Shown: in pieces, positions 311 to 4,364 of the stretch
Layout: every line of letters starts with the position of its first letter
Numbering within the stretch: position 1 is the stretch's first letter
Position numbers and translations under genes: made by a program
Source of the DNA: Candidatus Raymondbacteria bacterium RIFOXYA2_FULL_49_16
GTDB lineage: Bacteria > Fibrobacterota > OXYB2-FULL-49-7 > XYB2-FULL-49-35
Reading direction: 5' to 3'
Length of the DNA stretch: 64,000 nt
Assembly: GCA_001789205.1 (NCBI GenBank)
Contig: MFYT01000001.1
Span: 14,487 to 78,486 of the forward strand
The notes under the pieces: generated by a model
What the model saw: the letters and a program-made list of their open reading frames with translations, nothing else
Database searches by the model: none
What the model was told of the DNA's origin: nothing

Positions 311-643
311 ATGGAATCTACAAAGAATGTTCTTCATGTCACAGACAGTAACTTCAAGGCTGAGGTCATTGATTCAGACCTGCCAGTGCTTGTGGATTTC
401 TGGGCAGAGTGGTGTGGGCCCTGCAGAATGCTTGGTCCAACAATTGAAAAAATAGCTGAAAAATACCAGGGCCGGGTAAAGGTCGTAAAGATGAATACAG
501 ACGAGGCGCCGCAGGCGTCCATGGCATATAGCATAGCAGCCATTCCAACGGTCATGCTTTTCAACCATGGCAGTGTTGTGGACACGCTGGTCGGGGTACA
601 GCAGCCAATAATGTACGAGCGGTCGCTCGAGAGGGTGGTATAG
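311..643 (+). CDS. trxA: Thioredoxin
   Basis: A 110-residue protein with the complete thioredoxin fold signature: the F-W-A-E-WCGPC active site at about residues 28-36 and the cis-proline in the IPTVMLF strand. It reduces disulfides in cytoplasmic proteins using electrons from a thioredoxin reductase (none in this window). The ATG at 311 is chosen because it follows the strong ribosome binding site CAGGAGGC at 299-306; in-frame codons back to 236 have no such site. It is followed after one base by the candidate selenoprotein at 645 and is preceded by a sigma-54 promoter, so the two are probably cotranscribed. The product is a plausible reductant for the ArsC domain encoded at 2568. Confidence 0.95.
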   Translation: MESTKNVLHVTDSNFKAEVIDSDLPVLVDFWAEWCGPCRMLGPTIEKIAEKYQGRVKVVKMNTDEAPQASMAYSIAAIPTVMLFNHGSVVDTLVGVQQPIMYERSLERVV

Positions 644-644
644 C

Positions 645-806
645 ATGGTGGTAAAAATAGTGGTGGTGGTGGCAGGCGGGCTTCTTGGGTTTGCCTACTA
701 TAAATTCATCGGCTGCCACGGTGGCTGAGGGCTGACGGGAAATCCGTTTACCGCCGTAGTTTACGGGGCAGTCGTGGGTCTCATGATCTCTTCGTTTGTT
801 AAATAG
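645..806 (+). CDS. DUF6132-like small membrane selenoprotein (in-frame TGA = Sec)
   Basis: Reading from ATG 645 gives a glycine-rich membrane helix (MVVKIVVVVAGGLLGFAYYK), then FIGCHGG, a TGA at 726-728, then GLTGNPFTAVVYGAVVGL and a second hydrophobic segment ending at TAG 804-806. The frame after the TGA is clearly still coding. The layout matches, from memory, the DUF6132 family (about 50 residues, two membrane segments, a conserved G-C-x-x-G-x-C-x-[IL]-T-x-N-P loop), with TGA exactly where the second Cys normally stands. A hairpin suitable as a SECIS lies 31 bases downstream. It starts one base after trxA, so translation is probably coupled. Alternatives are a nonsense mutation or sequencing error, but a second Sec-type gene at 1887 argues against that. 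Confidence 0.75.
751..768 (+). promoter_or_regulatory. Candidate bacterial SECIS hairpin for TGA 726-728
   Basis: CCGTA (754-758), loop GTT, TACGG (762-766) form a perfect 5-bp stem, extended by CC/GG outside a bulged G753. The apical loop begins 31 bases after the TGA and its first base is G, within the 16-37-base window and G-in-loop rule described for bacterial SECIS elements. Pairing was found by eye; no folding was run. Confidence 0.5.
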
Positions 807-1886: not shown

Positions 1887-2177
1887 ATGAAGATTACAGC
1901 GCTGGCAAAAGAAGAGCTCGGGAAAATCTTGGTAAAAAAAGGGCAGAAAAACTCACTTTTTCGAATTTTTATTCAGGGTTTTGGCTGAGGCGGGCCCAGA
2001 TTGGGCATTGCCCTGGAAGGGCAAAAGAGCGAACGAGATAGTTCTGAAGATGTGCAGGGTTTCACCGTGGTGTACGAAGACAATCTCAAAGGATATATCC
2101 GCGACGCAGTGGTGGACTATCGGAAGAGCTGGTTTGGTGAAGCGGGTTTTGTCGTTGAAACAGGCTATGCCTGCTAA
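1887..2177 (+). CDS. HesB/IscA-like selenoprotein (in-frame TGA = Sec)
   Basis: From ATG 1887, preceded by GGAGGA at 1875-1880, the frame encodes MKITALAKEELGKILVKKGQ..FRIFIQGFG, a TGA at 1986-1988, then GGPRLGIALEGQ and a further 50 residues to TAA 2175-2177 (96 residues counting Sec). This is the A-type (HesB/IscA) fold. The GFG-[UC]-GGPxLGxxL context is the one reported for HesB-like selenoproteins, a recognised bacterial selenoprotein family, where Sec replaces the first conserved Cys. The usual C-terminal CGCG motif is absent and the protein ends ETGYAC. It probably has a redox or Fe-S-related role that is not established. A good SECIS candidate lies 20-36 bases after the TGA. Read with TGA as a stop the product would be only 33 residues. 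Confidence 0.88.
2008..2024 (+). promoter_or_regulatory. Candidate SECIS hairpin for TGA 1986-1988
   Basis: TTGCCC (2008-2013), loop TGGAA, GGGCAA (2019-2024) is a perfect 6-bp stem. The loop starts 26 bases after the TGA and its second base is G, as expected for a bacterial SelB-binding SECIS. An overlapping alternative pairing (GGGC at 2003-2006 with GCCC at 2010-2013) also exists. Confidence 0.6.
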
Positions 2178-2567: not shown

Positions 2568-4364
2568 ATGATACCCGCCAGCCTGTTATTCTTATGCACC
2601 CAAAATTCCTGCCGCAGCCAGATGGCCGAAGGGTTTGCCCGTCAATTTGCCCCTGCTGAGGTGTTTATCGCAAGCGCAGGCATGGAACCCTCTACTGTGC
2701 ATCCCCTTGCCATTGAAACCATGTCCCAGTTTGGCGTGGATATTTCAGGACACATTTCAAAATCGATCAGGGAATTCGGGTCCCGCAACTTTGACTTGAT
2801 TATTACCTTGTGCGACAACGCACGCCAGAAATGTCCAATTATGCCCGGCTCCCCCACTGTTGTCCATTGGAACCTCGAAGATCCGGCAACAGGCGGCGGA
2901 TCGCGCGAAGAGATACGTGAACGGTTTAAACAGGGTGCAACGGTCATACGCCAGCTCTGTTATGATTTATTCAACCGCGGCTATTTTTATTCACTTGTCC
3001 AAAACAAGAAAAACACCGACAATATTCTCAATGCCCTGCCCCAGGGAATTATTGGCCACGATCTGAACAGGAAAATTTTTCTTTTTTCGAGCGAGGCGGA
3101 GAGAATCACCGGATATGTCCAGAACGAAGTGTTGGGCCGCGACTGCCACCAGATATTTGACAACAATCTCTGCGGCGAAAACTGCGCCTTTTTCGATGAC
3201 AAGGGTCGCATGCCCGAAACCCACTGTTCATATGATACCACTTACAAGACAAAAAACGGTTCGTTTAAGGAAATTACAATGACCGTGATTCCCCTGCGCA
3301 ACGAGCGACAGGAGACCACGGGAGTCCTTGCTTCCCTGGTCGATCGCACTGTGCTCAAGCATTCGCACCGGCGGACCGAGGAGCCCTTCAGGTTCGGCGA
3401 CATCATTGGCCAGGACCATAAGATGCAGCTTATCTACGACCTTATCGAAGACCTGTCTGACAGCGACGTGCCGGTCATCATCAGCGGCGAAAGCGGTACG
3501 GGTAAGGAGATCATCGCCCATGCCATACACGCGGCAAGCGGTCGGCGCGACAAGGTCTTTGTTCCGGTCAACTGCGGCGCGCTTCCCGAGGGCACGCTTG
3601 AAAGCGAGCTCTTTGGCCATGTCAAAGGCGCGTTTACCGGGGCAATGCGCGATAAAAAAGGCCGCTTTGAGCTGGCCCATACCGGTACGCTCTTTCTCGA
3701 CGAGGTGGGCGAACTCACCCTACCCATGCAGGTGAAGCTGCTCCGCGTGCTCCAACACGGCACCTTTGAGCCAGTGGGCGGTGAAAAGACCGTGACCGTG
3801 GACGTGCGCGTGATCAGCGCCACAAACCGCAACCTCAAGGACATGGTCGCAAAGGGTACTTTCAGGGAAGACCTCTATTACCGTCTGGCGGTCATTCCTA
3901 TTGATGCGCCGCCTTTACGCCACAAAAAGAACGACATTCCCCTTCTTGCCAATGAGTTTCTTGCCCGGGTAAACCGCGAGACCCGCAGGAATTTTTCCTT
4001 TTCGGCCGAGGCCATGAAGACCCTGGTGGAATACGCCTGGCCCGGCAATGTACGGCAGTTGCAGAACGCGATCCAATATGCCACTATTAAAAGCCGTAAG
4101 GAGCAGGTCCTGCTTCCCAATCATTTTCCCCACGAAGTGGCAAACGCTGCTGCGCAGCTTGGCCAGCCTGGTGCTGACGGCGCTTTTGCCCATGCGTCCA
4201 GACCTGGCAGGAAACCCAAACTCAATGCTGCGGCCGTGGAGCTTGCGCTCGCAAAAAGCGGGGGCAACAAGGCAAAGGCTGCGCGCATGCTGGGTGTGGG
4301 ACGCGCGACATTGTATAATTTCATGAACGAACACAACGGAACACTGGAGGATAGCCATGTTTAA
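2568..4364 (+). CDS. Sigma-54 activator with N-terminal ArsC arsenate-reductase domain, PAS, AAA+ and Fis domains
   Basis: The 598-residue protein has four parts. Residues 1-135 form a low-molecular-weight phosphatase/ArsC domain with the P-loop C10-TQNSC-R16, the Cys pair C82 and C89 (LCDNARQKCP) and the acid D105 (NLEDP). These positions match the thioredoxin-coupled ArsC of plasmid pI258, so the domain should be catalytically complete. Residues 150-265 form a PAS domain with clustered cysteines (C193, C202, C206, C220) that could bind metal or sense redox. Residues 275-510 are the sigma-54 AAA+ domain with Walker A GESGTGKE and the sigma-contacting GAFTGA loop. The C-terminus is a Fis-type helix-turn-helix (KAARMLGVGRATLYNFM). 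No receiver domain is present, so sensing is by the ArsC and PAS parts. It overlaps the next gene by 8 bases and is the obvious candidate activator of the nearby sigma-54 promoters. Confidence 0.93.
   Translation: MIPASLLFLCTQNSCRSQMAEGFARQFAPAEVFIASAGMEPSTVHPLAIETMSQFGVDISGHISKSIREFGSRNFDLIITLCDNARQKCPIMPGSPTVVHWNLEDPATGGGSREEIRERFKQGATVIRQLCYDLFNRGYFYSLVQNKKNTDNILNALPQGIIGHDLNRKIFLFSSEAERITGYVQNEVLGRDCHQIFDNNLCGENCAFFDDKGRMPETHCSYDTTYKTKNGSFKEITMTVIPLRNERQETTGVLASLVDRTVLKHSHRRTEEPFRFGDIIGQDHKMQLIYDLIEDLSDSDVPVIISGESGTGKEIIAHAIHAASGRRDKVFVPVNCGALPEGTLESELFGHVKGAFTGAMRDKKGRFELAHTGTLFLDEVGELTLPMQVKLLRVLQHGTFEPVGGEKTVTVDVRVISATNRNLKDMVAKGTFREDLYYRLAVIPIDAPPLRHKKNDIPLLANEFLARVNRETRRNFSFSAEAMKTLVEYAWPGNVRQLQNAIQYATIKSRKEQVLLPNHFPHEVANAAAQLGQPGADGAFAHASRPGRKPKLNAAAVELALAKSGGNKAKAARMLGVGRATLYNFMNEHNGTLEDSHV

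Follow-up and report, generated by a model that had tools for sequence, protein, structure and literature searches.

The region analyzed was a 64,000-nt window of the genome of Candidatus Raymondbacteria bacterium RIFOXYA2_FULL_49_16 (MFYT01000001.1:14,487-78,486, forward strand), whose parent assembly, GCA_001789205.1, comprises 112 contigs and 5.43 Mb. Close to the beginning of the window, a thioredoxin gene is followed by a small open reading frame that contains an in-frame TGA and ends at a TAG codon (804-806), a single base separating the thioredoxin stop codon from its ATG (Table 1). When the TGA is translated as selenocysteine (Sec, U), the product is MVVKIVVVVAGGLLGFAYYKFIGCHGGUGLTGNPFTAVVYGAVVGLMISSFVK, in which GCHGGUGLTGNP forms the loop. 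A preliminary description of this DNA had reported two hydrophobic segments, a loop running straight through the TGA, and a position one base behind thioredoxin; the translation and the TIGR01068 match bore this out, T-x-N-P and the second helix both following the TGA. Eight residues were fixed in the 27-row alignment (G11, G15, U28, T31, N33, P34, G41, and A42). An AlphaFold2 model of the window peptide, obtained with 26 homologues, was a helical hairpin with helices at residues 2-22 and 34-51 and a mean pLDDT of 80, the minimum being in the loop.

Table 1. Features of the Sec peptide locus and of a nearby second selenoprotein gene; positions are those of the window.
Feature	Position	Strand	Basis
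Thioredoxin (WCGPC), first gene of the pair	311..643	+	TIGR01068, 120.1 bits (cut-off 96.8)
Sec-containing DUF6132-like two-helix membrane protein, 53 aa	645..806	+	Translation; 27-row alignment; model helices
Cys24 codon; only Cys in the peptide, likely Sec partner	714..716	+	Translation and loop inspection
In-frame TGA, Sec28	726..728	+	Cys here in homologues read; homologue internal stops TGA in 77/77
Candidate bacterial SECIS: 7 bp, 5' bulge, loop GUU, 30 nt from UGA to loop	751..768	+	Tentative; not significant against synonymous recoding
Second selenoprotein gene, HesB/IscA-like, TGA 1986-1988, motif U-G-G-P	1887..2177	+	NF038090 43.1 bits and TIGR01911 36.7 bits, both below cut-offs; UxGP motif

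The relationship to DUF6132 (PF19628), suggested in the preliminary description, was upheld for the family, although the window protein itself scored 15.6 bits, under the Pfam gathering cut-off of 23.2 bits. Eight of the 10 homologues scanned reached 31-48 bits (three Cys forms at 31-44 and five Sec forms at 33-48), among them a Cys form (L018) with 31.3 bits and 57% identity to the window protein. Since the cut-off is thus exceeded by Cys homologues of the phylum as well as by several Sec homologues, the Sec forms belong in DUF6132. The window protein also shows two helices flanking a Cys-pair loop that ends in T-x-N-P, a definition taken from the homologues read and not from the Pfam text. 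The Sec forms share with DUF6132 the two hydrophobic helices and a G-C-x(n)-[C/Sec]-x-x-T-x-N-P loop, but differ in that Sec replaces the second Cys, with 0-7 residues between Cys and Sec, and in that half of the inspected Sec forms carry the partner Cys four residues after Sec. As had been predicted for aligned position 28, Cys was present in the Cys homologues read and TGA in the Sec relatives. On a tree built from 42 short sequences, the window protein grouped with Sec forms from Delongbacteria next to the Cys clade, and the 22 other Sec forms were separate. A single change is enough to account for the distribution of Sec and Cys on this tree, the number of conversions being beyond the resolution of 54 columns.

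Homologues were abundant and widely spread. Among 167 Fibrobacterota genomes subjected to a read-through search, 15 had the Cys form, with the typical loop GCxxGxCPITSNP, and five besides the window had a form with one in-frame TGA; contigs of Chitinivibrionales/Chitinispirillaceae were among those with homologues. Scanning one genome per species for a DNA pattern gave 32 places, of which 26 were genuine Sec forms whose helices and stop codons were rightly placed. The six other matches (L049, L054, L056, L064, L068, and L069) lacked the flanking helices and were attributed to chance. Profile searches covered 395 genomes of a Deltaproteobacteria-type phylum, 35 of which gave 37 matches, each with one TGA, and 291 genomes of the Armatimonadota phylum, with 42 matches, of which 34 had a single TGA and eight had none; six of these eight were read and all six had Cys at the Sec position. 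In the samples searched, the Sec form was found in 9% of the genomes of one phylum and 12% of those of another. After deduplication, about 87 Sec loci were counted, window included (about 86 further homologues), from at least six phyla: Fibrobacterota, Delongbacteria, Fermentibacteria, Deltaproteobacteria/Thermodesulfobacteriota, Armatimonadota, and Chloroflexi. A pattern search for relatives with Cys replacing the TGA and a search of viral contigs for relatives gave no match. Three of the Sec loci (L118, L119, and L120) formed a divergent subgroup with an additional Cys in the first helix and S-x-S-P replacing T-x-N-P.

In the homologues whose sequence was read, the TGA fell at the same residue, and each of the 77 internal stops met in the three read-through searches was TGA, with no TAA and no TAG. 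In-frame TGA in these homologues is far beyond chance. The preliminary description had called for a search for selA, selB, selC, and selD and had counted a lack of selB or selC against Sec; all four genes were present in the source genome, selB and selC included. The tRNA-Sec scored 65.6 bits, above the Rfam cut-off, and ARAGORN assigned it the anticodon TCA; selB (369 bits) and selA (505 bits) adjoin each other on the contig that carries this tRNA-Sec(UCA), and selD (367 bits) lies elsewhere. Of 26 genomes carrying the Sec form, 22 had selB, compared, by the same search, with 4 of the 15 that had the Cys form only. The four Sec-form genomes without selB all had tRNA-Sec and only partial SelB-like matches, as expected from fragmented assemblies.

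The HesB/IscA-like TGA gene, about 1.1-1.2 kb downstream of the Sec peptide gene, carries the U-x-G-P motif given for HesB-like selenoproteins (PMC13188914 Table 1). It supports Sec use in this genome and is no part of the thioredoxin-peptide unit. Its product ends in GYAC, and ordinary gene calling splits the gene. An FmdB-like small protein (2183-2377) is encoded directly after it. Judged by eye, FmdB-like genes are recurrent neighbors, since one also comes after the Sec peptide gene at L086 and at L045.

This FmdB-like gene ends at an ordinary TGA (2375-2377), a point in favor of reading the TGA of the peptide gene as a true stop too, leaving either a 27-residue peptide or a decayed DUF6132 gene. 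Homologues with a true stop and no conservation after it had been named in advance as evidence against Sec. However, T-x-N-P, G-A-x-x-G, and the second helix are kept past the TGA in about 86 relatives, the internal stops of the homologues are exclusively TGA, and the genome contains Sec machinery, so that a true stop is hardly credible. The FmdB-like stop also indicates that TGA is not globally reassigned in this genome, which bears on a decoding of TGA as Cys or Trp through another tRNA. Cys is indeed the aligned residue in homologues, but the selA/selB/selC/selD set is complete, the tRNA with a TCA anticodon scores as tRNA-Sec, a TGA gene of a known selenoprotein family lies 1.2 kb away, and ordinary TGA stops occur elsewhere; such a decoding is therefore very improbable. 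Judged from these sequence data, Sec insertion at TGA 726-728 appears close to certain.

The signal for Sec insertion was less clear. The G-looped hairpin mentioned in the preliminary description exists, but the position 31 bases after the TGA is the G of its loop (759) and not its start. Synonymous recodings of the same peptide gave equal hairpins 40% of the time (p about 0.4), and the 60-nt fold had a z of -1.0. The window hairpin being thus within chance, the SECIS of the window is only a candidate. When single hairpins were submitted to the synonymous-shuffle test, those of some relatives were supported and that of the window was not. In the group with Cys before Sec, AATCCCTGGTCAGGGAT was nearly fixed across phyla though synonymous positions are free, and it folds into a stem with loop GGUC, 19 nt past the UGA. 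The E. coli fdhF element has the same GGUC loop letters. A U-A pair (columns 18/31) changed to C-G in three sequences, a covariation signal that was lost on sliding the pairing. The Rfam model SECIS_1 matched neither the source genome nor any control genome and this search was thus uninformative.

Each of the 48 Sec loci inspected had exactly one Cys in the loop. This partner Cys was located 1-8 residues before Sec in 24 loci (six residues before in L111, read by hand) and exactly four residues after in the other 24; no locus had both or neither. The same two partner positions were found in the Cys forms. Owing to the kinship among many Sec loci, the 24/24 split represents a few lineages and not 48 independent events. 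A single partner Cys on either side of Sec is what a selenenylsulfide or disulfide pair requires, and Sec and this Cys thus very probably form a redox pair.

We also analyzed the gene neighborhoods. The linkage to thioredoxin seen in the window recurred, immediately upstream and on the same strand, in 17 of 48 Sec loci (one at 139 nt), from Fibrobacterota, Delongbacteria, and the Deltaproteobacteria-type group. About two thirds of the Sec loci had no adjacent thioredoxin, several being interrupted by contig ends, and only one of 11 Cys loci examined had a thioredoxin nearby. In three Delongbacteria-type loci (L044, L058, and L061), the order was cytosolic thioredoxin, exported thioredoxin, and Sec peptide, the second thioredoxin being called exported from an N-terminal signal-like segment judged by eye; OsmC and ArsR came after the Sec peptide in L044 and L058. 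L044 and L061 are near-identical loci on separate contigs of one Delongbacteria assembly, perhaps reflecting strain variation within the bin. A Cys form (L077) was preceded by thioredoxin, exported thioredoxin, and, by eye, a membrane iron-sulfur-like protein.

A CoA-disulfide reductase adjoined Sec forms (L086 and L087) as well as Cys forms (L072 and L073), and a DsbD-like gene was near the Cys form L072. The Sec form L089 adjoined an SO_0444 exporter with a C-terminal CopZ-like domain (L089:3656-4969), and a Sec version of this exporter family is on a published list (PMC13188914). Within the window, a 598-aa protein (2568-4364) has an N-terminal ArsC-type domain, of the thioredoxin-dependent arsenate reductase family, fused to a sigma-54 activator, and may act as a sensor of redox state or arsenate that drives sigma-54 promoters. 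The neighbor genes point to a setting of membrane thiol chemistry and reactive-sulfur or metal(loid) stress.

The locus is best explained, and with good probability, as encoding a selenoprotein form of DUF6132 that acts as a thioredoxin-reduced Sec-Cys relay in the membrane. The product would be a very small helical hairpin seated in the inner membrane, with Sec and one Cys in its loop, and this pair would alternate between a reduced state and, when oxidised, a selenenylsulfide. The cytosolic thioredoxin encoded one base upstream plausibly reduces the pair, in line with the hypothesis of the preliminary description. Exported thioredoxin-like proteins or reactive-sulfur enzymes might then receive reducing equivalents or sulfane sulfur from the peptide at or across the membrane, conceivably in the manner of a minimal CcdA/DsbD. 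As two glycine-rich helices alone would hardly form a conducting core, the peptide would probably do so as an oligomer. A Foldseek search of PDB folds with the model gave no structural match, and a mechanism thus cannot be borrowed from a relative.

Alternatively, Sec and Cys could constitute a sulfane-sulfur or metal(loid) site that takes persulfide, selenide, arsenite, or copper at the membrane, and not an electron relay, thioredoxin serving only to reset it. The presence, among the neighbors, of CoA-disulfide reductase, OsmC, ArsR/SmtB, a CsoR-type repressor (best match RicR), and the SO_0444 Cu/Zn exporter with its fused CopZ-like domain agrees with such a role, as does the ArsC-like domain fused to a sigma-54 activator in the window. 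However, no one partner is common to all lineages and thioredoxin is by far the commonest neighbor, so that we consider this role possible but somewhat improbable. Returning to the thioredoxin-reduced relay, one may tentatively go further, although the balance leans against it, and see in this widespread uncatalogued family a minimal (about 50-residue) Sec-Cys thiol conduit connecting cytosolic with exported thioredoxins, the resolving Cys having moved from one side of Sec to the other during evolution.

The relay would resemble CcdA/DsbD in its working, a membrane-protein Cys pair linked to thioredoxin, but there is no sequence match and the peptide has merely 53 residues and two helices. The YeeE/YedE family likewise consists of membrane proteins with reactive Cys/Sec at the ends of glycine-rich helices, a likeness to the Sec peptide. 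In contrast, YeeE/YedE proteins are far larger and the Sec peptide gave no Pfam match to them. A Sec form of this thiosulfate transporter family has been listed (PMC13188914). With catalogued selenoproteins, the peptide shares Sec where homologues have Cys, a Cys-Sec pair, and, in relatives, a SECIS-like hairpin.

In agreement with the preliminary description, which knew of no Sec form of this family, no paper presenting DUF6132 as a selenoprotein was found in freely readable text, unnamed earlier candidates such as GOS_A (PMC2398784) lying outside this comparison. DUF6132 is absent from the table of a 2026 inventory of 119 prokaryotic selenoprotein families and subfamilies (PMC13188914), and the NCBIfam selenoprotein models (June 2026, E 0.5; HesB-like, Tso, and others) matched none of 27 Sec forms.

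Because annotation pipelines end the open reading frame at the TGA, the family has gone unseen in genomes from at least six phyla. Most of the characterized selenoproteins are enzymes with a thioredoxin fold (PMC13188914). A membrane hairpin made of two helices and bearing a lone Sec-Cys pair would, if true, be very small for a redox-active membrane protein, and DUF6132, so far without a function, gains one that can be tested.
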